From a virus, in the IMG/VR virus record IMGVR_UViG_3300030382_004256, positions 1-33,501 of that record: a stretch of 33,501 nt of DNA. One strand, 5' to 3'. Positions 1,989-28,398 of this stretch are shown here, piece after piece (position 1 is the stretch's first letter; each line of letters starts with the position of its first letter). The translations under genes were made by a program, and so were the position numbers. The notes beneath the pieces are model-generated. The model was not told the DNA's origin and ran no database searches. It was given only the letters and a program-made list of their open reading frames with translations.

Positions 1989-4900
1989 TCATTTCCCCTT
2001 TTTTCCAACGATACCCTCATTTGTATCAAAAGAAGAGTCGTAAATATCCATCTTGGGAAAGTTCTCAGGATTTTCATTTTGCCAAAACTTTACAAGCTCA
2101 AGTAGTTGAGTTCTGTAAGCATCAACAGTCTCATGAGTCACTGGGTCATCAGTTGCCCAACCTGGAAGCTTGGTAACAAACCTGTGTTCCAACTGTCCTA
2201 AACCAAGCTTGATAGATATTTCAGCCCAATCCATTTGATTGCCTTGTTCATCTTCAGGGCCAAGCTTGATATCAATTAAATCTCTACCGAAGGTGCCTTT
2301 TTCTCCACTAATTACGATCGTAGTTGCTTCGCCAGAAGCATTTAGCATTGCGACAAGGAAACGAGTGGCTTCTACTCCTCCAACTTCGTCGTAAGGACGC
2401 TTGCCTCCACCTCTTCGGTGATTTTTATCATATACCTCCGCAGCATCTAAATTCTTAATACGTCCAGTAGACTCTATGTAATAAGTATTACCTTCTGTAT
2501 CTTCGATCTGAATTAACTGCTCTGTAGTATCTGCATCCTTTACTACCGTAATAACTCCCTTGCCAATTGTCCCATCGACATTCTTAATGTTTACCTTCAT
2601 TCCACCCTCGATCTTCCCATCAAGGAAAGGACCAAGAACCTCAGGTAAACTTATGTTTGTATCAATTGGCGTTTCTGAATAAACAGGAATCCCATTTCCA
2701 ACGCCTTGAGAAACTTCGATAGCTCTATCCAAGGTTTCTCTTACTGTTTCTTGACCATTCCAAGGTACTTGAAGGACGTTATAGGACTTTAAAGCTTCCT
2801 TTCTAATCTTATCATTGACTTCATTTGCAGACATGAAGTAACCAAGGCCACTAGTCCTATCTTTTATCCATTGGTTTGCTTGTTGTCTGAAGACTTCATT
2901 TCGTTTTTTAGATGGACCCAACCTGGGAGTTGGATTTCCTTGAAGCCTTGTCAATAAGTCACCAGAAGAAATATCTTCAACAAAAGCTTCTGCGTATATA
3001 GCTCCTTGTATAAAATGGGTTGTTGCACTTCCTAAGATTCCAGAAAGAGAACGAGGCACAACGCCCTGATAATCATTGATGCCTAAAGCACTAAGCATAT
3101 CTATTTCATCAGAATCATCTCCATTGCGTTTTTGGTCTTTGTATATTTCTTGAATTACTTGCCCAACTGAAATTATACCATCATGCTTGTCTGCCCACCC
3201 TGGATGATTAGCTAAGACAGCACTAGTAAAAGCAGCAACAGTACGAGACTGAGCGTCTAAAAGAGCCCTTCCTGTCAAGAATTCATTTCCTACTAGCTGA
3301 TCTGTGGCTAAAACAAAACTCGCTCCAGACGGAGTTTGTGCAAGAAAATTTCTTACTTCTGGATTATTAAAAACAATGTCTAAATGTTCTTCGTTTGAAG
3401 GATTGAATTTCTCATCTATCCAATCAATTACAAGAGGCTCTCCAGTATTTTCATTTATTAAAGAGGATATAGTAGTCCCAGCTACGCCTTCCTCGCTTCT
3501 TATAGTGAATCCGCTGTCTTCTGGGGGTGGACCATAGGCCCTGGGGCCCATGGTAACATCGAGAACTGACCTAAATGTACTAGACATAGGTTTGAGATCA
3601 TATTCTTCTCTTTTCGCGCTTGGAAAAACAGTTTCCCAAATTGTTAATGCTGTCTCTTCTGATACGAAACTAGTAGAAACGGCCCAGTCAATGGCATCGC
3701 TCTTTACTTCATCAAGGGCTAACCCAGGTAAATAACCTACATCATCTCCAACAGAGCTAGCAGCATCTATTGCTGATGCGAAGTAATGTCGGAAATAAGC
3801 TTCATTTTCTCTAGGTTTGATTGCTGAAAGAAGTGGATGATTTCTTACATAAGCCCAATTGTCTTGATCAATATTTGCAATAACTGATGAATCAGTAAAT
3901 AAAGGATTATTAGATAAGTCTATGTTTCCTTCGTAATTGCCATAATATAAAACTTTAAAACTATCATTTGATAGTTGCTCAAAGTCTAAGCTTGTTTCAA
4001 GATCTAATCTTTCCTCATTCGTCATTTCGTTAAGCTGTTCGACGGTGGCAATGTTAAGATTGGCAGCTATTTGAGTAAGAAGTTGACTACTAGCAGCATT
4101 TGTTTGCCAAGAGGCAGCAGGGACTTGATTCATTCTCGAACGTACTGGATTGAGAGTAACTTTTCCTCTTTCGTCTTTAATAAAACCATACCTTAAAGCA
4201 AATTCACTTTTATTAAAGTCTTCTTCCTTTAAAGCTTTTTTAAAAGATTTCATCTTCCATTCAGAATCTTGGACAGTACCCCTTGCAAAGAATTTATTAA
4301 CTCCTGATATCTGTGCGGCTGTATAGCCTCGTCTATGCAGAGTATCTTGAGTTTTTGCGTAAAGGTTCGCTCCTCCTCCTCTCGTTATTTCTGAGTAAAT
4401 AGATTCATTTGAAAGAGCAATGACAGCCATTCCAAGCCCGTCTCGTCCGTCCTCCAAAGCTTCAGAAAGACCTATGTGGATATTTCTACGATCACTTATC
4501 ATTTTATCAGAATACCCAAGGTTCATTTCTGGTGGAAATATTACCCGAGCAAATCCCATCTCTCGATTGCCCCAGCCAATCCCAGATCCAGATCTAGAAC
4601 TAGAGCCAGAGCCAGAGCCAGAGCCAGAAGAAATCGAAAGACCTCTGTCTCTTCTTAATTGATCAAGTTCATGGATTATTTGCTGTGGTTGTTTAGACAT
4701 TGGGGAATATTCACCTTCCCCAAATTCACCCTCGGGTCGCCTACCAAAAGCCTGATCTACATAATGAAAATAGGGATCTTGTATATCTTCAGATATAATA
4801 GCTCCCTGCTTTCTGAGGTGATGACCTAATCGAGCAAGACCAATCGAAAGACTATAACCATTTGGAGTCTTTCCAGTTGAATCTACCTCACTAAGTATCT

Positions 4901-17756: not shown

Positions 17757-19163
17757 TCAGTGGTAAATCGGGTTGTAATCCATACCCGTATCAGTAGGCA
17801 TTATTCTTTTCATACTCGTAGAAGCAAATCTTCTCATCATCCAGGCGTATCGAGTGGATGATATAACATCATCGTACAATTTTACAATCTTACCTGCTTT
17901 TCTGTGATATTGACCTATTTCATCAAACAAAGGTTTTGCTGTAGAGAATACTTTAAATTTCCCAGTAAGCATTGCCTCAAGCATTTCTTGAATAGGTGCT
18001 TCTATACCAAATCCGCCACCTATATTTGTTGCGTGATCAGGAAGCATCTTTAAGCCATGCTGTCTATACAACAAAGAAAGCTGATCCCCTGAAGACTGAT
18101 CATGCTTATAGCCATCGTGAGGCCATGCTACCGGATAATTCCCCCACGCCTTGATAGCCGCTGCGTGTATTGCGATAACTTCTCTGCGCTGCTTGTAAGT
18201 GGCAATAACATAAAAACAATCATCATCCCTATCCCAAGCGCAAAGAGAAGCAGCAGTAGGATGATCCCATCCAAAATCCACTCCAATAATTCGAGCCCAA
18301 TGGTCAGGCACTTCAAACGGATTGACAATGATTTCTGACTCAGGGATGGTGAAAACCAGTCCTTCCCCAAGCATAGGCTTGCCTTGAGTTCTTGCTTCAA
18401 CTTCATGAGCTGGAGTTTTAGCAATAATTTCCTCAATTTGCTTAGGAGTAAAATGGCCCGCATCATAAATAGTCATCGTGACGAGGCCTTTAGCCTCGTC
18501 CACGACTTCAGGATAAAAGAGACGAACGACGTGAGTCATTCCCATTAGAGGCGTAGCCGTGATGTAGGTGATTCCCTGGGTCGCATTAGTACGGGTCACA
18601 CCCTCTGAATACACGTCCATAGGCGGCTCCTCATCGAACCACACAACGTGAATAGGAACACCCTGCCACTTCTCGCGACCTTGATCGTATGTCTTGAATT
18701 TGAGGGTAGAAACGCCTCCGCTGGAGTGTCGGATGGTAATAATATCCGCTGCGTCACTCACCCCTTTAGCTCGCTTTACTTCGAGGATTGAGGAGGCTGG
18801 GAGGGAACCAGTTCCCCATTGCTCCGGCGAATCACCGAGCAGCACCCTTTGGGGATTGTCGCGTGTGGTCTCGGAGGAGTTACCTGAGGCCCAAGCTCGA
18901 ATTGGATGAGTGAATTTGTGGCCCTGCCACCATTCGGGGTAATTACCCGTCAGGTGCATTGCCATCTCCATGCCACCGCTTAGAGTCTTACCTAGCTGGT
19001 TTCCAGCCATGAAGCACCGTTCTCGTTTAATGCTTCCTTTCTGATGGAATTCCATTTGCTTCAGATAAGGCTTGTAGTTCTCCAGTTTCCGGCGTGATAT
19101 CTCTCGCAGAATCTGAGCCTTGCGTTGGAGATTCTTGTATTCCCCCTGCTGATCCAAATTCAT
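17757..19163 (-). CDS. terL: Terminase large subunit, ATPase and nuclease (468 aa)
   Basis: DNA-packaging motor and headful or terminus nuclease. Walker A is at residues 53-60 (AGNQLGKT), Walker B at 174-179 (VWFDEE) with catalytic Glu, and the coupling motif ITATP at 201-205. The C-terminal RNase H-fold nuclease shows its first Asp in VDFGWDHPTA (296), a second in PHDG (350) and the late DDVISSTRYA (431-440). The N-terminal KPYLKQMEFHQKG before the Walker A is typical. The start needs care: GGAGG abuts the ATG at 19163, while an in-frame TTG at 19157 has ideal spacing. Either way the gene begins inside the small-subunit gene, an unusually long overlap of about 130-137 bases. Confidence 0.96.
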   Translation of the reverse strand: MNLDQQGEYKNLQRKAQILREISRRKLENYKPYLKQMEFHQKGSIKRERCFMAGNQLGKTLSGGMEMAMHLTGNYPEWWQGHKFTHPIRAWASGNSSETTRDNPQRVLLGDSPEQWGTGSLPASSILEVKRAKGVSDAADIITIRHSSGGVSTLKFKTYDQGREKWQGVPIHVVWFDEEPPMDVYSEGVTRTNATQGITYITATPLMGMTHVVRLFYPEVVDEAKGLVTMTIYDAGHFTPKQIEEIIAKTPAHEVEARTQGKPMLGEGLVFTIPESEIIVNPFEVPDHWARIIGVDFGWDHPTAASLCAWDRDDDCFYVIATYKQRREVIAIHAAAIKAWGNYPVAWPHDGYKHDQSSGDQLSLLYRQHGLKMLPDHATNIGGGFGIEAPIQEMLEAMLTGKFKVFSTAKPLFDEIGQYHRKAGKIVKLYDDVISSTRYAWMMRRFASTSMKRIMPTDTGMDYNPIYH

Positions 19164-19626
19164 CCTCCAACATCTTTACTTCTAAACGAAGTTCCTCGAT
19201 GGATCTGTTCGCCATCTCGTTTTTAGTATCGGATTCTGAAAATAGACCAAAAATCCTAGCAAGGCTATCAAGGTATCCTTTGTGATCCTTGTATCGGTTC
19301 ATTTCCCTAGCGTTGCGGACTCCCCATGCGTATTCATCGAGAATGTTTTTCTCGGTCAGCAGGGAACGGTTGATTACCATCTCGGCCCGCTGTACGGCAA
19401 TGTGTCCTATGCGAACGCGAACGTCCTGACGCTTTGCTAACGCCGAAGGTCGTCCCCCTACCTGTCCCCCCTCGGGTATTCCAAATGCGGTACGGTAAGA
19501 ATCTTGAAGGCTTCGTCCAGTTGCTACATGAACGGAAAAGATCTCATGCCGCATGTTGTCCAGCGGATTCCCGAGCTTCTCTTGATCCGTGAGGTTTTCA
19601 TACTCTTCAAGAATCTCATCAATCAT
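19027..19626 (-). CDS. terS: Terminase small subunit (199 aa)
   Basis: It precedes and overlaps the large subunit. The region from about residue 25 (MRHEIFSVHVATGRSLQDSYRTAFGIPEGG) followed by GRPSALAKRQDVRVRIGHI looks like the DNA-binding helical domain of small terminases, which resembles 'A-Y-x-A-G' helix-turn-helix terminases. Then follow a long helical oligomerisation region (EEYAW... type: ILDEYAWGVRNAREMNRYKDH) and an acidic tail. It recognises the packaging site. It starts at ATG (19626), sharing ATGA with the upstream small gene. The last 45 or so codons are read in another frame as the TerL N-terminus. Confidence 0.85.
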   Translation of the reverse strand: MIDEILEEYENLTDQEKLGNPLDNMRHEIFSVHVATGRSLQDSYRTAFGIPEGGQVGGRPSALAKRQDVRVRIGHIAVQRAEMVINRSLLTEKNILDEYAWGVRNAREMNRYKDHKGYLDSLARIFGLFSESDTKNEMANRSIEELRLEVKMLEDEFGSAGGIQESPTQGSDSARDITPETGELQALSEANGIPSERKH

Positions 19627-19862
19627 TTATATCCTAGCTTTTCAAGCAGAGCCCGTTCTTTAAGTGTTAGATTCTTACCAGTCCTCGCTTTAGCTAAAAC
19701 TCTTCTTTCGGCAGCAGTTGGTGCCCCTGGACGATTGGGATTACTGGGCCTTTCAGGTTTACTGCTTTTCCAACCACTAGCGGTTGGCGTGAGAGCGGTC
19801 CTTGGCCTGTACTCCCTGTTGTTTCTAGACCCAGGAGCGAGGGTGTTATATCTGTCGGGCAT
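19623..19862 (-). CDS. First gene of the virion operon, small basic protein (79 aa)
   Basis: A short basic protein (MPDRYNTLAPGSRNNREYRPRTALT ... TAAERRVLAKARTGKNLTLKERALLEKLGYK) whose C-terminal helical part is conserved-looking. I do not recognise it. A longer reading up to 20045 is possible but would begin inside the promoter and cross a leader hairpin. The ATG at 19862 has GGGAGAGGAG just upstream, so I use it. It ends in ATGA with the small terminase gene, so it is the promoter-proximal member of the packaging operon. Confidence 0.65.
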   Translation of the reverse strand: MPDRYNTLAPGSRNNREYRPRTALTPTASGWKSSKPERPSNPNRPGAPTAAERRVLAKARTGKNLTLKERALLEKLGYK

Positions 19863-19929
19863 ACTCCTCTCCCGTAGTTGCCATAAGAGCGCAGTTGTAC
19901 TTAAGTGTTCTGAGAGAACCCAACCATTG

Positions 19930-19964
19930 ACTGCCATCGACCCGCCTAAGCGGGACGAGGCAGT
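19930..19964 (-). promoter_or_regulatory. Two-tier hairpin in the leader of the virion operon
   Basis: Outer stem 19930-19935 with 19959-19964 (6 bp), an internal loop (5 and 4 bases), inner stem 19941-19945 with 19950-19954 (5 GC pairs) and a four-base loop. It sits about 30-65 bases downstream of the predicted start site of the leftward promoter and before the first ribosome site. A role as attenuator, protein-binding leader or transcript stabiliser is possible. No U-run follows. Confidence 0.5.
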
Positions 19965-20000
19965 ACGATCTCTTTTATACTTATCGTTTCGTCCCTCCTC

Positions 20001-20030
20001 AATATAAGAGCCTTTGTATAGGCTTGTCAA
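20001..20030 (-). promoter_or_regulatory. Near-consensus sigma70-type promoter for the leftward operon
   Basis: Minus strand: -35 TTGACA (20030-20025), 18-base spacer, -10 TATATT (20006-20001). The -35 is a perfect match and the -10 matches five of six. The predicted start of transcription is near 19994. It faces the whole packaging and virion operon, so host RNA polymerase can probably transcribe it. The spacer itself contains a small inverted repeat (AGCC ... GGCT) that might bind a regulator. Confidence 0.75.
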
Positions 20031-20103
20031 GGGAAATATCTTCATTATATGGTTCTATTATAAGAGGCGAACATGCTCCCAGACTGAGGATTCGATATTT
20101 ACT

Positions 20104-20198
20104 TGTATCTCGAAAGCGAAAAGTGGGGGTGACCCTCCCCCGAAGGTTTGAGCTGACAAGTAACGTTGGGCGATCGACGCATGACATGGACGCCCTGC
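20104..20198 (-). repeat. Left copy of outward-facing inverted element
   Basis: Read on the minus strand this element has a 31-base block (20198-20168) and a 26-base block (20129-20104) separated by 38 bases that can form a G5/C5 hairpin. The same two blocks, in the same order, occur on the plus strand at 23910-23998: 25 of 31 bases match in the first block and all 26 in the second. The pair brackets the G+C-rich island, and each copy faces an outward operon. It could be the end of a mobile segment, a promoter or operator recognised by a phage factor, or a replication element. Confidence 0.8.
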
Positions 20199-20300
20199 CT
20201 ACGCCTCAACGCTATACCCCATAGATCTATTTTGCTGAAGTCGAACACGGACGATTAGAGTTGTAAGACTTTCATTTCAACCCCAAGAGTCACAGTAATT

Positions 20301-20609
20301 ATGTCACACATACGAGCGACACCTCATGACCTAGTGCAATTCAGGAAGAAACATGCTCTTTCCCAAGCACAGTTAGCCAGCGACCTCGGGGTAACGCGCC
20401 AATCCGTATCACGATGGGAGAACGGACACGTGAGGATACCGTCCATCATGCCAGTAACGCTGCGTGGCCTAGCCCACATCTACCAATCAAGACGCACCTC
20501 CAAGCGGGCACACGAACGCAAGCGCCTCGTCCGACAACAGAACCTTGAAAGGCAGCGAGCCACCGCACTAGACCACATGCCTGACCACATCAGACGACTC
20601 TTCGAGTAG
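20301..20609 (+). CDS. XRE-family helix-turn-helix regulator (102 aa)
   Basis: Residues about 8-62 form a classic Cro/CI-type HTH: LVQFRKKHALSQAQLASDLGVTRQSVSRWENGHVRIP, with the recognition helix around TRQSVSRWE. The C-terminal third is very basic (RRTSKRAHERKRLVRQQNLERQ) and may add DNA or RNA contact. It is the first plus-strand gene after the divergent region, so a role in switching the divergent promoters is likely. No convincing Shine-Dalgarno precedes the ATG, so it may be weakly translated or leaderless. Upstream, 20199-20300 holds no other gene that I can see. Confidence 0.85.
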   Translation: MSHIRATPHDLVQFRKKHALSQAQLASDLGVTRQSVSRWENGHVRIPSIMPVTLRGLAHIYQSRRTSKRAHERKRLVRQQNLERQRATALDHMPDHIRRLFE

Positions 20610-20662
20610 CTCAATGGCTTGCCCACCCCTCGGGTAGCGCGGGGTGTTCTCGCCCACTCGAA
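20601..20662 (+). other. Hairpin spanning the stop codon of the XRE gene
   Basis: TTCGAGT at 20601-20607 pairs with ACTCGAA at 20656-20662. Inside, CACCCC (20624-20629) pairs with GGGGTG (20641-20646). There is no following T-run, so this is not a standard terminator. It leads directly into the structured non-coding region and may be its first helix or a separator between the mRNA and that region. Confidence 0.5.
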
Positions 20663-20869
20663 GTAGTAAGTGTGAAAGAGGCGTCCTCCGAAGACTACGG
20701 AGCGCGTGCGGGCGTTAACAAAGTAACGCCGTACCAAAGCATATGGCTTAAACAGCGAACCTCGTTATCTGCAAAAAGATTTGCTTTACGTAAAACACGC
20801 CCTGTAGTGACGTAAAACAGAAAGACCGCGTAACGCCGCGGACGCACTTTTGCGAGCAAGCTCGCCTGC

Positions 20870-21047
20870 ATTGGTTACGGGCGACAGGCCATGGCTGCCA
20901 GGGGTGCGGGAATCCTTTTGTCCATGAAGACATGGATGATTCCCTGATGGAAAATGCTCCTGCTTCGCGAACTTGGTTCCGCCGTAACCAATACAGGTGG
21001 ACTCCTTGGACCCCATCGAGGGGTCCGTTCGTCCAATTAAGTTCGCG
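20870..21047 (+). other. Long-range pseudoknot in the candidate RNA
   Basis: ATTGGTTACGG (20870-20880) is perfectly complementary to CCGTAACCAAT (20982-20992), 11 bp. CGCGAACTT (20966-20974) is perfectly complementary to AAGTTCGCG (21039-21047), 9 bp. The four strands alternate, so both helices together make a pseudoknot; otherwise they are exclusive neighbours in alternative folds. The region between the last two strands holds a separate 7-bp GC hairpin (21008-21014 with 21020-21026) extended by GGAC/GTCC (20999-21002, 21031-21034). Confidence 0.6.
20908..20944 (+). repeat. Bulged hairpin motif, copy 1
   Basis: Basal stem GGGAATC/GATTCCC (20908-20914, 20938-20944), U-rich 5' bulge CTTTTG, apical stem TCCATG/CATGGA with loop AAGA. 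The pair next to the bulge is G20920-T20937, a wobble only if the plus strand is RNA; copies 2 and 3 have A-T there. It lies inside the 11-bp helix of the pseudoknot domain. Confidence 0.75.
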
Positions 21048-21110
21048 TTTTGCCAACAATTGGATGCAGGATAGCATCCAATCACGGCACGGCTCCTTGA
21101 CAATCACCAC

Positions 21111-21152
21111 GACGCTCTCTCTTTTATCCATGAAGACATGGATGAGAGCGTC
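21111..21152 (+). repeat. Bulged hairpin motif, copy 2
   Basis: Basal stem GACGCTCTC/GAGAGCGTC (21111-21119, 21144-21152), 5' bulge TCTTTT, apical stem ATCCATG/CATGGAT with loop AAGA. The apical part and bulge match copies 1 and 3, but the basal stem is entirely different in sequence and still fully paired, which is compensatory change. Confidence 0.75.
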
Positions 21153-21157
21153 TAAAT

Positions 21158-21195
21158 CCGCGCTGTTTTCATCCTTGCGGACAAGGATGGCGCGG
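21158..21195 (+). repeat. Bulged hairpin motif, divergent copy
   Basis: Basal stem CCGCGC/GCGCGG (21158-21163, 21190-21195), 5' bulge TGTTTT, apical stem CATCCTTG/CAAGGATG with loop CGGA. It has the same architecture as copies 1-3 but different sequence apart from the U-rich bulge, so it is a structural rather than sequence repeat. Confidence 0.65.
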
Positions 21196-21276
21196 AATGG
21201 CGATTGTCGTTCGCCTAAAACGCGATAGTACCCCACCACACACAACAGATTACTTACAGGGTATCACAGAGTGATC

Positions 21277-21313
21277 GGGAATCACTTTATCCATGAAGAC
21301 ATGGATGATTCCC
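21277..21313 (+). repeat. Bulged hairpin motif, copy 3
   Basis: Basal stem GGGAATC/GATTCCC (21277-21283, 21307-21313), 5' bulge ending CTTT, apical stem ATCCATG/CATGGAT with loop AAGA. It is nearly identical to copy 1, about 370 bases away, indicating duplication. It is preceded by a small ATCAC/GTGAT hairpin and followed by the CAGAGCC/GGCTCTG helix. Confidence 0.75.
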
Positions 21314-21432
21314 TGTCAGAGCCTTGGAGAAGGCTACTAATCATTCGAGACTCTTTCCCGACGGCTCTGGATCATGTTTTTCGCCACTAATCGGTCCCAA
21401 CGATGTTTTAACTAAGTTGAGGACAACTTACT

Positions 21433-21462
21433 CGCCCTCTTTTTCCACTTCGTGGAAGGGCG
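21433..21462 (+). repeat. Bulged hairpin motif, short variant
   Basis: Basal stem CGCCCT/AGGGCG (21433-21438, 21457-21462), U-rich 5' bulge CTTTT, apical stem TCCAC/GTGGA with a UUC loop. It repeats the design of the other copies: U-rich bulge on the 5' side, apical stem opening with TCCA. It is immediately preceded by a separate 7-bp hairpin with AGGA loop (21413-21430). Confidence 0.6.
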
Positions 21463-21508
21463 ACCCTAAAGGGTTAAAAATCTTATGGCCCCTCAATTGT
21501 CGAAAACC

Positions 21509-21579
21509 GGCCAAGCAAGCCACTGCCAGAAAGAATCCTCTCCCTACAGTGGGAGAGGCTGGCACAAGCTTGCAGGGCC
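21509..21579 (+). other. Long interrupted helix in the candidate RNA
   Basis: Four stacked helices: GGCC (21509-21512/21576-21579), GCAAGC/GCTTGC (21515-21520/21568-21573), TGCCAG/CTGGCA (21524-21529/21559-21564) and CCTCTCCC/GGGAGAGG (21537-21544/21551-21558). They are separated by internal loops of 2x2 and 3x3 bases and a seven-base 5' bulge, and capped by TACAGT. Twenty-four pairs in 71 bases with regular interruptions is typical of functional RNA. Confidence 0.65.
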
Positions 21580-21686
21580 TACACGCGAAAGGATATTCGC
21601 GCTCTGAGCTATCCGTGTAAGTTATCTGTTGCGTGCGATGCGGGCATGGTGCCTAAGGCGAGTATGCGACTCAGAGGAGAACGAGC

Positions 21687-21902
21687 ATGACCGAGATTTT
21701 CGCGCAAATATGGTTTCGGGAGGCACGACGCCTTGACCGAGAGTTGGACCGACCCGAAGGCAATGCCGAGACCACCTTCCAGCTTCTCATGGCTGCCCGA
21801 AATCATGCGTGGCGCATGAAGTGGGCGTATAACGATTACGGGCAGGATCATTACGTCCGACCCTGCTGCTCATGCTTACAGTGCTTGTCGCAGGGCTTTT
21901 AG
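21687..21902 (+). CDS. Small helical protein, paralog 1 (71 aa)
   Basis: The N-terminus (MTEIFAQIWFREARRLDRELDR) shares the pattern I-x-Q-x-W-x-x-E-L with the next two genes, but the C-terminal half is different and contains a cysteine cluster (CCSCLQC, residues about 60-66) that could bind metal. The ribosome site AGGAGAACGAGC before the ATG is repeated word for word before the next two genes. No known function. It directly follows the structured non-coding region, so its expression may depend on that RNA. Confidence 0.65.
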   Translation: MTEIFAQIWFREARRLDRELDRPEGNAETTFQLLMAARNHAWRMKWAYNDYGQDHYVRPCCSCLQCLSQGF

Positions 21903-21972
21903 AACGCCTTGATCGCATCGGGGTATTGTGCCCCGGTGCGGTCGAAGACGACCGCATTTAAGGAGAACGAGC

Positions 21973-22182
21973 ATGATCGACGGATTGATTCAAATTTGGG
22001 AGCGCGAGCTTGATCAGGCGAATGCCGAGGTTGAGCGGTATTCCGACCAGTATTACGAAGGTGGTACCTACCTCGAAGGAGACTGCGACCGCTACTGGGA
22101 GCTTCCAGAGGTCGAAGAGGCAGACGGACGCCTTGCCATCGCAGAAGAAACGCTTGAGCAATTGACGAAATTCACCTCATAA
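21973..22182 (+). CDS. Small helical protein, paralog 2 (69 aa)
   Basis: MIDGLIQIWERELDQANAEVERY at the start and RLAIAEETLEQLTKFTS at the end match paralog 3 closely. The middle is acidic and aromatic (YYEGGTYLEGDCDRYWELPEVEEAD). The true start is the ATG at 21973, which has AGGAGAACGAGC upstream; an in-frame ATG at 21928 has no such site. It is probably two helices forming a hairpin or oligomer. Family and function unknown. Confidence 0.75.
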   Translation: MIDGLIQIWERELDQANAEVERYSDQYYEGGTYLEGDCDRYWELPEVEEADGRLAIAEETLEQLTKFTS

Positions 22183-22194
22183 AGGAGAACGAGC

Positions 22195-22410
22195 ATGTAC
22201 GATATCAACGGATTTATTCAAACTTGGGAGCTTGAGCTAAAAAGGGCTCAGTTGGCATTGGGTACGAGCTACTGCCAGTGGATAGTCGATTGCGGAACAG
22301 ACGCGACGAATAAGGGGTGGGACCGCATGTTGGCGAAAGACGCACGACTGGCCGAAATGTACCTTCGCGTTGTTATCGCAGAAGAGACGTTGACGAAGTT
22401 CACCTCATAG
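22195..22410 (+). CDS. Small helical protein, paralog 3 (71 aa)
   Basis: The ends match paralog 2 (FIQTWELELKRAQLAL at the start, VVIAEETLTKFTS at the end) while the centre differs (SYCQWIVDCGTDATNKGWDRML). The gene begins 12 bases after paralog 2 and has the same ribosome site, so it arose by tandem duplication including the leader. Conserved ends with variable centre could mean a shared oligomerisation frame with changing specificity. The function is unknown. Confidence 0.75.
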   Translation: MYDINGFIQTWELELKRAQLALGTSYCQWIVDCGTDATNKGWDRMLAKDARLAEMYLRVVIAEETLTKFTS

Positions 22411-22422
22411 AAGGAGATGGAA

Positions 22423-23145
22423 ATGCAAGATCGTTACTATGCACGACTCGAAGCCATCAAGGATGCCATGCTTGCATCACTGGGGGCACAGTACAAACGG
22501 GATCGCGGCGCAGATAACCGCTGGTTCAGCGACCTCGCAGGACGCACGTTATGGGTTTCAGACATCCCTACTAACCCGGACGCAGAGCAGGAACGCTCTG
22601 ACCGCTACGCCGTAGCATGGACACGCAAGTTCGCAGATGTCAGCGACCACCTTTCAGACCTCATGAGAGAGGCCGACGCCTGGAACAGAGAGCCTGACGA
22701 GCAGCAATCGCTACTCCGAGCCATCTCTCGATCGCTCCAAGATGCTTGGCTACGGGAGCAGGAGGCTCGATGTTGTCAGGCCTGTAAGACGCACCTCTTC
22801 GACAGATCCAGAGTCCTTTGCCACGACTGCGGCCAAGCGTTTAACGAGCGAGCGTTCGAGTTTGAATCCGAAGGCTTTGACTCACCCAATCAGCTTTACG
22901 CTGAGTCCGACGGCTTTGCTTGGGACTACCGCTTCAGTAAAACCGACGAGGATGGAGCGACCCTCATCGACGAATTCGGAAAGCCCGAAGTCATAGACGA
23001 AGGGAGCTACATCGAAAGGCTTCGCCAGATCGAGGAGCTGAAAGAACGACTCGCCTTGCTCGAAAAGAAGTATCTGATCGGAGAAATAAGCTTCGACGTT
23101 TATGAACTTGAGCAGAACGAACTCCTAGCTGAATTTCGAGATTAA
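22423..23145 (+). CDS. Zinc-ribbon and coiled-coil protein (240 aa)
   Basis: It carries two CxxC pairs, C118-C121 and C133-C136 (CQACKTHLFDRSRVLCHDCG), a treble-clef or rubredoxin-type zinc ribbon. The N-terminal half is helical and charged. The C-terminal part (about 195-240) is a coiled coil ending in KKYLIGEISFDVYELEQNELLAEF, which resembles the 'short C-terminal' SHOCT-like helix found at the ends of many bacterial proteins. I prefer ATG 22423 because AGGAG lies six bases before it and only abuts the ATG at 22417. It is the last of the paralog operon. Nucleic-acid or protein binding is a guess. Confidence 0.75.
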   Translation: MQDRYYARLEAIKDAMLASLGAQYKRDRGADNRWFSDLAGRTLWVSDIPTNPDAEQERSDRYAVAWTRKFADVSDHLSDLMREADAWNREPDEQQSLLRAISRSLQDAWLREQEARCCQACKTHLFDRSRVLCHDCGQAFNERAFEFESEGFDSPNQLYAESDGFAWDYRFSKTDEDGATLIDEFGKPEVIDEGSYIERLRQIEELKERLALLEKKYLIGEISFDVYELEQNELLAEFRD

Positions 23146-23155
23146 GATGCACAAC

Positions 23156-23193
23156 GGGCCGTTCTCCCCCGCCGGGGCGAGGGGGGGCGGCCC
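23156..23193 (+). terminator. GC-rich hairpin, possible terminator
   Basis: GGGCCG (23156-23161) pairs with CGGCCC (23188-23193), and CCCCC (23166-23170) pairs with GGGGG (23181-23185). It lies 11 bases after the stop of the zinc-ribbon gene. The tail is CTACTTAAATTTT rather than a pure T-run, so termination is probably partial. Confidence 0.55.
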
Positions 23194-23212
23194 CTACTTA
23201 AATTTTAAAATC

Positions 23213-23227
23213 GGACCACCGTGGTCC
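23213..23227. promoter_or_regulatory. Perfect 15-base palindrome, operator-like
   Basis: GGACCAC and GTGGTCC flank a central C. It lies 20 bases upstream of the next start codon and just after an AT-rich tract (TTAAATTTTAAAAT) that could supply a -10 box. The XRE protein of the island is the obvious candidate ligand. In RNA it would be a 5-6 bp hairpin near the ribosome site. Confidence 0.45.
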
Positions 23228-23247
23228 CTGAAAATGGAGAACATAAC

Positions 23248-23712
23248 ATGAGCGAAATGATGAGCATAGAGAACCTGATGGACAGTACCGCGAACCCCAA
23301 CGCCCTGAGCGAAGGTCAGCACTTGGTCACGATCAAACGTGCCTCGATGAACGAGGCTACGCACTCCAAGCATGGCAAGTATCAGTACCTGCTGCTGCAC
23401 CTCGAAGATGAAACGGGGATCGAACATGGCCCCCTTAAGATCAACGCAGGCGTCACGAAGCTTGAGCTTGCCAAGTTTGCTGCTCTCTGGTCCGCGACTA
23501 TGGGAAAGGCCCCCTTGTCGAAGGCCAGCAAGGTAGCAGGTCCGAGCGGACTCCCTGCCGGTAAGCTTGAGTGCTTGAAGGGGAAACGCGTCATTGCGAA
23601 TCTTCTCTGCATTCAGGACGATCCGAACGCCTCGTATACGGACTCCAAGGGCTGGAAGAACGAGTTCGCGATTCACATGGCTAAGTCGATCCCGACCTTC
23701 GGATCGGAGTAG
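23248..23712 (+). CDS. Possible OB-fold / ssDNA-binding-like protein (154 aa)
   Basis: The order of strands (EGQHLVTIKRASMNEATHSKHGKYQYLLLHLED-ETGIEHGPLKI, later GKRVIANLLCIQDDPN ... GWKNEFAIHMAKS) resembles DUF669-type and other phage OB-fold DNA-binding proteins: a first strand, 'SKxGKYQYLxLxLED', then a downstream 'GKRVxANL' strand. This is an impression, not a confirmed match. The ATG at 23248 has GGAGA eight bases upstream; an ATG at 23221 lies inside the palindrome and has none. The gene ends just before a strong terminator, so it is the last gene of the island transcript. Confidence 0.6.
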   Translation: MSEMMSIENLMDSTANPNALSEGQHLVTIKRASMNEATHSKHGKYQYLLLHLEDETGIEHGPLKINAGVTKLELAKFAALWSATMGKAPLSKASKVAGPSGLPAGKLECLKGKRVIANLLCIQDDPNASYTDSKGWKNEFAIHMAKSIPTFGSE

Positions 23713-23727
23713 GCCAAGCTCAGTACC

Positions 23728-23773
23728 AGGGTGGTGCAGGTTGCTAGCGCAGCTTGTACCACCCTTTTTTTTT
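23728..23773 (+). terminator. Rho-independent terminator
   Basis: Arms 23728-23738 and 23755-23765 pair over 11 positions (one G-U) with a 16-base loop, followed by an uninterrupted run of Ts through 23773. It is the clearest intrinsic terminator in the window. It closes the island transcript, 16 bases after the stop codon. Confidence 0.92.
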
Positions 23774-23789
23774 CATGTGTGAAAAGGCG

Positions 23790-23835
23790 CGCTCAAAGAT
23801 ATGAGCGTCCAAGTAACAAGGGGCAGACCCCTTGT
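23790..23835 (+). other. Two hairpins between terminator and right inverted element
   Basis: CGCTCA (23790-23795) pairs with TGAGCG (23802-23807), loop AAGATA. ACAAGGGG (23816-23823) pairs with CCCCTTGT (23828-23835), loop CAGA. The stretch 23774-24019 holds no gene I can support. Apart from these hairpins and the right inverted element, I see nothing else in it. Confidence 0.5.
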
Positions 23836-23909
23836 ATATCCCCCCAGTGCGTAACTAGCACAACGCCAGGTAAACCCCCACGAAGACACATCGAGCAAGA
23901 ACCGGCGAG

Positions 23910-23998
23910 CCAGGACGCCCATGCCATGCACCGATCGCCCCCTCAACCGAAACACGTTCCCAAAAACGAACGCCCCCACTTTTCGCTTTCGAGATACA
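23910..23998 (+). repeat. Right copy of outward-facing inverted element
   Basis: The first block 23910-23940 and second block 23973-23998 match the left copy (20198-20168 and 20129-20104) on the opposite strand; the second block is identical over 26 bases. The 32 bases between them are different in sequence from the left copy but also form a hairpin (CGTTC ... GAACG). It ends 21 bases before the ATG of the first gene of the rightward accessory operon. No good sigma70 promoter is visible here, so the element itself may carry the start signal. Confidence 0.8.
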
Positions 23999-24019
23999 CG
24001 GAGAGTCTCAAAACATCCA

Positions 24020-24894: not shown

Positions 24895-25089
24895 ATGAGT
24901 AGCATGAAGAAGGCCATAATCCAGGCCAAGATCAACAACATCCCCAATATGACCCAGGAAGAAATCCTTAAGGATCTTCACAAGATCTGGCAAGAAGAAG
25001 CTACCAAGGAAGTCATCGCAGAAGCCCTTGATCGCATCAAGACATTCCGCCTGTATAGATCTGACCGTCTGTATCAATCTGATACTTGA
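24895..25089 (+). CDS. Hypothetical helical protein (64 aa)
   Basis: A short, probably all-helical protein (KAIIQAKINNIPNMTQEEILKDLHKIWQEEATKEVIAEALDRIKTF) without recognisable motif. The ATG at 24895 has ATGGAGA upstream at good spacing, the best support for it being expressed. It is followed by 180 non-coding bases with RNA structure and tandem repeats, so it ends this small operon. Confidence 0.65.
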   Translation: MSSMKKAIIQAKINNIPNMTQEEILKDLHKIWQEEATKEVIAEALDRIKTFRLYRSDRLYQSDT

Positions 25090-25100
25090 GTCAGCGTAAA

Positions 25101-25185
25101 TCCATAGTACGCAACCTATGGAGCGGCTTGGATGTTAGACGTAAACGCCAAGCCAGTTAAACGTCCGAGTGGGTGAAAGGCCCAC
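25101..25185 (+). promoter_or_regulatory. Hairpin plus H-type pseudoknot, riboswitch-like leader
   Basis: Three elements in 85 bases: a hairpin TCCATAG/CTATGGA (25101-25107, 25116-25122); GGCTTGG (25125-25131) with CCAAGCC (25148-25154), interleaved with GACGT (25138-25142) and ACGTC (25161-25165), forming a compact H-type pseudoknot; and GTGGG/CCCAC (25169-25173, 25181-25185). It lies between two genes on the plus strand. It resembles no riboswitch class I can name. A protein-binding or frameshift-type element, or a small RNA, are alternatives. Confidence 0.5.
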
Positions 25186-25209: not shown

Positions 25210-25263
25210 AGTCTCAAATTGGTACATAGTCTCAAATTGGTACATAGTCTCAAATTAGTACAG
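25210..25263 (+). repeat. Three tandem 18-base repeats (iteron-like)
   Basis: AGTCTCAAATTGGTACAT occurs twice without gap (25210-25227, 25228-25245), followed by a third copy with two changes (25246-25263). The array ends eight bases before the next start codon. The word AGTCTCAAA also occurs upstream of the DUF932 gene (25519) and just before the gene at 24020 (24004). Possible roles: cooperative repressor or activator sites, or iterons of a replication origin. Confidence 0.85.
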
Positions 25264-28056: not shown

Positions 28057-28254
28057 ATGCTTGATACAGAATTATTCGTGATATACGATGGAAACGTGAT
28101 GCGATGGTTCGCAGGCAACCGATCCGGCTCCGATCCTGTTGGGGAACTATCCAAAGAAAAAGCAATCGAGTGGGCTGAAAATAAGATGACCACCTTCGGG
28201 TGCTTTCATCTTAATTTCACTATGGGCGATTGGTTGGTGGTAACGGGAATGTAG
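28057..28254 (+). CDS. Hypothetical protein overlapping a tRNA (65 aa)
   Basis: A small protein (MLDTELFVIYDGNVMRWFAGNRSGSDPVGELSKEKAIEWAENKM ... WLVVTGM), not recognised. I use the ATG at 28057 with AAAGGG upstream; an ATG at 28042 overlapping the previous stop (TAATG) is an alternative. The last codons and the TAG are part of the tRNA-Leu acceptor and D-arm junction, so CDS and tRNA overlap by ten bases and processing of the tRNA would truncate the mRNA. Confidence 0.65.
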   Translation: MLDTELFVIYDGNVMRWFAGNRSGSDPVGELSKEKAIEWAENKMTTFGCFHLNFTMGDWLVVTGM

Positions 28255-28320
28255 CCCAATGGCAGAGGCAGGGGACTTAAAATCCCTCTAGTGTGGGTTC
28301 AAGTCCCACCATTCCCACCA
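28245..28320 (+). tRNA. tRNA with Leu anticodon UAA, unusual short variable loop
   Basis: Acceptor GGGAATG/CATTCCC (28245-28251, 28310-28316), D-stem GCC/GGC, anticodon stem GGGGA/TCCCT with loop CTTAAAA (anticodon TAA at 28278-28280), five-base variable region, T-arm GTGGG-TTCAAGT-CCCAC, discriminator A and an encoded CCA. All canonical landmarks are present. It would read UUA/UUG codons. Bacterial tRNA-Leu normally has a long variable arm; here there are five bases, so charging identity is uncertain. Confidence 0.9.
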
Positions 28321-28321
28321 A

Positions 28322-28398
28322 TGGCCCATAGCTCAAAAGGTTAGAGCACACGTCTTATAAGCGTGCGGTTCCGGGTTCAAGTCCCGGTGGGCCGACCA
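28322..28398 (+). tRNA. tRNA-Ile (anticodon UAU)
   Basis: Acceptor TGGCCCA/TGGGCCG (28322-28328, 28388-28394, first pair U-G), D-arm GCTC/GAGC, anticodon stem CACGT/GCGTG with loop CTTATAA (anticodon TAT at 28356-28358), variable CGGTT, T-arm CCGGG-TTCAAGT-CCCGG, discriminator A, CCA encoded. It reads the rare AUA codon. One base separates it from the preceding tRNA, so both are probably cut from one transcript. If processing starts at 28323, the acceptor has six pairs. Confidence 0.93.

Follow-up and report, generated by a model that had tools for sequence, protein, structure and literature searches.

Between a Cro/C1-type HTH gene and an operon of small proteins, the genome of an uncultured phage carries about 1 kb of DNA, and this locus raises the question of whether that DNA specifies a large folded RNA, on which strand such an RNA would lie and whether it belongs to a known class. 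The stretch analysed (hereafter the window) is the whole viral record IMGVR_UViG_3300030382_004256, 33501 bases in length. The original prediction had proposed a structured noncoding RNA here, recalling GOLLD and ROOL, with crossing long-range helices, repeated loops and a repeated hairpin design, and lying directly before the operon. To our knowledge, very few RNAs of such size and complexity are known.

Setting and extent of the region

The HTH gene occupies 20301-20609 on the plus strand, and the whole structured region, a candidate noncoding RNA assigned to the minus strand, extends from its stop codon to the start of the small-protein operon (20610-21686); gene and RNA would be convergent if the RNA is on the minus strand. 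The structure placed earlier at 20681-21676 is real, but its edges are better set at the HTH stop codon and the ribosome-binding site of the next gene, the latter forming the edge of the region in all three phages compared below. The tandem genes for small acidic proteins (21687-22410, plus strand) are without RNA structure and repeat their ribosome-binding site, the sequence AGGAGAACGAGCATG being common to several small-protein genes. Three tandem diverged copies of the gene are present with identical ribosome-binding sites, and in the middle copy variation between phages is spread almost evenly over the three codon positions; three other genes further along, taken as a control, show the usual third-position excess. 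That the small-protein gene forms part of the RNA was considered and rejected, as neither strand is structured there (z about 0 over the second gene). We read its product as a fast-evolving protein, because its DNA lacks RNA structure, despite the even codon-position variation.

Several other features of the locus were noted. From about 20045 downwards the minus strand carries the late genes (terminase, portal, capsid), with a sigma-70-like promoter ahead of them at 20030-20001 (minus strand, 11 of 12 matches); by eye, a near-consensus sigma-70 promoter stands on the minus strand before the late genes in the window and in the related loci L002, L005, L006 and L088. G+C content across 18000-24000 is 0.49-0.54, against mostly 0.34-0.47 elsewhere in the record. 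At 28245-28398, 6.6 kb from the candidate RNA, genes for tRNA-Leu(taa) and tRNA-Ile(tat) stand side by side, and the DNA of this pair is 90% identical in L088. The block formed by the HTH gene, the candidate RNA and the small-protein genes is flanked by inverted repeats 2.9-3.8 kb apart (20104-20129 with 23973-23998 and 20168-20200 with 23908-23940 in the window; 4043-4086 with 6985-7028 in L088), whose arms are complementary in each phage though their sequence differs, the mismatches being mostly A.C on the plus strand. Further downstream, about 100 nt of noncoding DNA (25082-25182) are 85% identical to L002 1488-1589; hairpin stems in this element seem by eye to covary, a pseudoknot on the plus strand is possible, and Rfam held no match for it. 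Ahead of a gene, 25210-25263 contains AGTCTCAAATTGGTACAT in three tandem copies, and the core of this repeat, AGTCTCAAA, is found again near 24010, where it follows the flanking inverted repeat's 3′ arm, and in the relatives too.

Folding and coding potential

The stretch 20610-21686 is by far the most structured of the record. The MFE of 20681-21676 is -415.1 kcal/mol, against -308 ± 9 kcal/mol in dinucleotide shuffles (z -11.9 on the plus strand and -11.2 on the other), and for the whole region z amounts to -11.5 on the plus and -16.0 on the minus strand (40 shuffles), which bears out the dense structure over about 1 kb that had been predicted. In 200-nt windows along the plus strand of the whole record, mean z is -3.8 inside the region and -0.9 outside. 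A strand-neutral fold of the region holds 36 helices of at least 5 bp, and of perfect Watson-Crick stems 8 bp or longer there are 14 (7.1 in shuffles), or 5 when only local stems are counted (0.9 in shuffles).

None of the region's reading frames recurs in the homologs. The best piece, 40 aa at 52% in the block termed R2 (74% DNA identity), is no more than its DNA identity alone gives, whereas the neighbouring HTH protein, used as a control, was readily recovered at 51-54% amino acid identity (E about 1e-31 or better). The view that no credible gene lies here is thus upheld, and in neither of the two homologs was a conserved reading frame found.

Comparison with known RNA families

A cmscan of the full window against all of Rfam 15 returned no match for the region at E up to 1, and when the region was scanned by itself with E raised to 10 there was nothing but sub-threshold noise; two homologs likewise gave only noise against Rfam, and no family was matched at its gathering score. 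The GOLLD model (RF02032, cut-off 150 bits) found nothing in the window and no more than 8.4 bits elsewhere in one relative. The ROOL model (RF03087) also found nothing in the window, and as control genomes were negative with it too, it is the whole-Rfam cmscan that carries weight. Whether the region belongs to a known class had been left undecided by the prediction, and the absence of any Rfam match speaks against it.

Counterparts in related phages

A terminase search led to seven close relatives in IMG/VR, in six of which the HTH gene was located and in four of which the gap was readable. Two of them have a clear counterpart in the same gap between HTH and small-protein genes, one of 711 nt in G006 (locus L088) and one of 1142 nt in G005 (locus L006), the contigs that carry them being IMGVR_UViG_3300020460_000006 and IMGVR_UViG_3300020473_000065; the search of viral metagenomes for homologs thus yielded two. 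By blastn, a block at 20682-20803 is 75% identical to L088 over 123 nt, and a hairpin block at 21414-21466 is 85% identical to L088 over 54 nt and 77% identical to L006, while L088 and L006 have 308 nt in common at 87%. The counterparts are structured as well (z -7.65 in L088; -3.9/-4.4 in L006). The gap of L002/L004, similar in size, has no sequence similarity and weak structure (z -2.4), and was not counted as a homolog.

Wider searches returned little else. An 18-nt hairpin core matched, among viral contigs, only L001, by chance and inside a gene, and two more DNA patterns retrieved nothing beyond chance matches and the relatives already known. At the protein level, the small protein alone and the HTH gene alone gave nothing; the terminase, an HTH alignment and a DUF932 gene as queries led to the same few close relatives only, and bacterial genomes offered distant terminases only. 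Neither the 50,697 phage records nor the 72,556 plasmid records searched contained a usable DNA match to the region. Models of the two conserved parts, R1 and R2, detected no further homologs among the collected loci, nor did R1 in 289 alphaproteobacterial genomes, where its lone match (E 8.6e-4) combines 74% GC and a high bias term, and was taken as chance.

Helices, hairpins and covariation

The features below are given in coordinates of the window and are placed on the minus strand. All three phages share just one part, a domain closed by P1, a long-range helix of about 30 bp whose 5′ arm on the minus strand (21613-21643) pairs with the 3′ arm (21231-21261); among inverted repeats spaced 150-450 nt apart, the two arms form the strongest of the 33.5 kb. 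Inside P1 lies a conserved branch, R1 (21371-21510), made of two adjacent hairpins on a common stem; the window scores 104.7 bits with the R1 model, a value to be read with the window's own part in building that model. Both an A-bulge hairpin (21432-21463; a U-bulge on the plus strand) and a hairpin with a GUCCUC loop (21413-21430; GAGGAC on the plus strand) have counterparts in all three phages.

The A-bulge design, consisting of an outer stem, a bulge (U-rich on the plus and A-rich on the minus strand) and an inner stem, recurs in five hairpins. Copies 1 (20907-20946), 2 (21113-21152) and 3 (21276-21315) are near-identical to one another, the A-bulge hairpins that they represent being bounded at 20908-20944, 21111-21152 and 21277-21313, and a further one at 21157-21196 has a UCCG loop on the minus strand, so that the repeated hairpin design noted earlier was recovered. 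The repeated loop sequences were found also, as GARGAC-loop hairpins (GUCYUC on the minus strand), with four in the region and one more at 21935-21958, against 32 in 2.0 Mb over all loci compared. A three-way junction at 21099-21208, closed by 21099-21109/21198-21208, surrounds two A-bulge hairpins, and a long helix at 20865-20997 (20865-20880/20982-20997, 16 nt, 94%) encloses copy 1, its core being the 11 bp between 20870-20880 and 20982-20992. This helix is crossed by one of 9 bp at 20966-21047 (20966-20974/21039-21047) and may form a pseudoknot with it. The predicted crossing pair can thus be located in the window, but neither homolog has a counterpart of it and the pseudoknot is unconfirmed. 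A second conserved domain, R2 (20675-20811), is shared with L088 only and is placed on the minus strand with its strand not settled.

In L088 and L006, the arms of P1 occupy the same positions, differ greatly in sequence and are again mutually complementary. Cognate arms in the three phages give duplex energies of -45.6, -51.7 and -43.1 kcal/mol, compared with -20.1 to -35.5 kcal/mol for mixed, non-cognate arms. In the fold of the L088 and L006 domain, 4 pairs are changed on both sides and 6 on one side, and in the three-phage alignment of the branch 7 pairs are changed on both sides and 13 have at least one row unpaired. With three sequences, covariation supports the P1 domain well and any other pairing only weakly. 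The long-range pairing of P1 is hence kept in the homologs despite sequence change, and of the marks of a large structured noncoding phage RNA, structure well above chance with covarying pairs and the lack of a conserved reading frame are both seen, in a set of three homologs.

Strand

Watson-Crick helices are alike on both strands and only the wobble pairs differ. In the strand-neutral fold of the three phages, mismatches within helices on the plus strand comprise 10 A.C and no G.U, which makes them G.U pairs on the minus strand; the same kind of fold of the syntenic L002 gap has 1 A.C and 5 G.U on the plus strand. For the conserved domain, z on the minus and plus strands is -9.8/-6.8 in L088 and -7.0/-3.4 in L006, alifold of these two gives -114.4 on the minus against -98.4 on the plus strand, and P1 is more stable on the minus strand by 9-13 kcal/mol, although these measures are not independent, since each of them draws on the same set of wobbles. 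The P1 domain is thus likely to be read from the minus strand, and for the RNA as a whole this strand appears moderately supported.

Two observations temper this assignment. Strand-biased mutation could mimic the wobble bias, and the distant inverted repeat, which is not obviously RNA, shows the same bias. In addition, the unpaired bases of the R2 domain are A-rich on the plus (49%) and U-rich on the minus strand (45%), which points to the plus strand there. No promoter or terminator was recognised for a minus-strand transcript; as the start codon of the small protein lies no more than about 45 nt from the presumed 5′ end, a promoter on this strand would have to sit inside a gene. The strand call matters for structure probing, as otherwise the wrong strand would be transcribed.

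A separate hairpin motif

The counterpart in L006 contains a 90-nt hairpin motif, R3 (L006 4552-4649), which is reported separately because it is absent from the window and L088. Intergenic copies occur in MH572438.1 (2713-2765, Microviridae) and KT264808.1 (1611-1664, Gokushovirus), a copy is present in a further phage scaffold (MT839809.1 2282-2325), and further copies are found in MZ127829.1 (13760-13846 and 14217-14306) and PP496355.1 (22046-22129 and 21414-21501), the motif being shared with two dsDNA phages. In Sphingopyxis phage VSN-002 and Microcystis phage Mvi-Yong1342-1 it lies within annotated genes, and in two phages it forms inverted pairs at both ends of one gene. Over six sequences, 98.8% of cells are paired and double changes affect 7 of 14 pairs, neither value being reached in any of 500 shuffles. 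The R3 model matches 18 of 289 alphaproteobacterial genomes; the motif adjoins an ArdC anti-restriction gene in four of the eight contexts read and is not in Rfam. It is possibly a single-strand initiation site, a promoter or a mobile palindrome. R3 was considered as proof of the minus strand and dropped, as both orientations occur inside genes of other phages.

Discussion

Taken together, the comparisons give a little better than an even chance that the region is a large noncoding RNA on the minus strand, about 0.7-1.1 kb in the three phages, that would act as a folded RNA. It would extend from a 5′ end near 21650-21690 to a 3′ end at about 20610, close to the stop codon of the HTH gene. The 5′ half would form a domain closed by the helix of about 30 bp and containing the paired hairpins, of which one has a 3′ bulge rich in A, and the remainder would be a changeable set of accessory hairpins and junctions. 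An RNA so oriented heads for the HTH gene, leaving the small-protein operon behind it, and would therefore be an independent transcript, not a leader.

The main rival, which we consider unlikely, holds that the minus strand is structured as single-stranded DNA, for example as a replication or priming site of many hairpins for which no stable RNA is needed. G.T wobbles pick one strand in DNA folds too, so that the pairing bias would be shared, and the hairpin at 21432-21463 and its counterpart in L088 have C-GAA-G loops, which are favoured in DNA as well. The covarying inverted repeats 2.9-3.8 kb apart that flank the block would also suit such a site. Single-strand initiation sites consist of a single or double hairpin, and the priming sites known to us are less than a 1-kb fold with three-way junctions and a closing helix of about 30 bp. 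These sites, like single-stranded promoters of the Frpo type (PMC11541004), are conserved hairpins acting when DNA is single-stranded; R3, which is part of the L006 counterpart, is found again in ssDNA microviruses and ahead of ArdC genes, but this shared module is missing from the window itself and from L088.

Next after this comes the possibility that the plus strand encodes a very long structured RNA, a leader or an intercistronic one, controlling the small-protein operon, again an unlikely reading. That the region ends at the operon's ribosome-binding site in three phages and that unpaired R2 bases are A-rich on the plus strand would be expected of it; however, the helices hold no G.U against 10 A.C on that strand and the comparative folds are better on the minus strand. 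The earlier placement of the element directly before the operon, by implication as its leader, is disfavoured by the same pairing evidence. A parallel, put of HK022, is a structured phage leader RNA of under 100 nt that acts on its own transcript; it resembles the region in having paired hairpins beside an early phage operon, but the region is about 1 kb and probably on the opposite strand. Quite improbable is a pile of palindromic mobile repeats of the REP or Rickettsia palindromic element kind with no coherent function, as P1 and its inner branch keep position and pairing under sequence change, which insertion of repeats does not predict, even though the window repeats hairpins in near-identical copies, the set of modules differs from phage to phage and R3 lies within annotated genes in two phages. 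Highly improbable, finally, is a divergent GOLLD or ROOL RNA, given that there was no Rfam match even at E of 1 to 10 and that neither model finds the window, despite the similar size, phage setting and complexity and the conserved and variable halves that GOLLD also has (PMC12286853).

For the favoured minus-strand RNA, the best reading is a new class that may resemble GOLLD and ROOL in its working without belonging to either; of the likeness first proposed, size, complexity and phage setting stand, and membership finds no support in the Rfam scan or the two models. GOLLD and ROOL form homo-oligomeric cages, and the function of the phage-encoded RNAs with solved cages is open (PMC12286853). 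GOLLD is often over 800 nt, with one half well conserved and the other variable (PMC12286853). Like GOLLD (RF02032), the candidate is large, phage-encoded and rich in helices, with one conserved and one variable half, but it has no model match at a useful score, its conserved half would be 5′, provided that the minus strand is correct, and the tRNA genes beside which GOLLD often lies are 6.6 kb away. With ROOL (RF03087) it has in common a length of about 0.6-1 kb, a phage setting, a complex fold and a possible pseudoknot, and differs in the lack of a model match. As the size, junctions, closing helix and repeated hairpins resemble those of GOLLD and ROOL, the folded RNA may serve in the infected cell as a scaffold or self-assembling particle and not as a message, and antisense transcription could also switch between plus-strand genes. 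A large ornate phage RNA class, antisense to its neighbours and defined by a closing helix of about 30 bp and A-bulge hairpins, that assembles into a multi-copy particle during infection is accordingly put forward only as a tentative and rather doubtful proposal. If the class is indeed new, it would offer a fresh case for structure determination, and its independent presence in a different group of phages would tell whether phages resort repeatedly to large folded RNAs.
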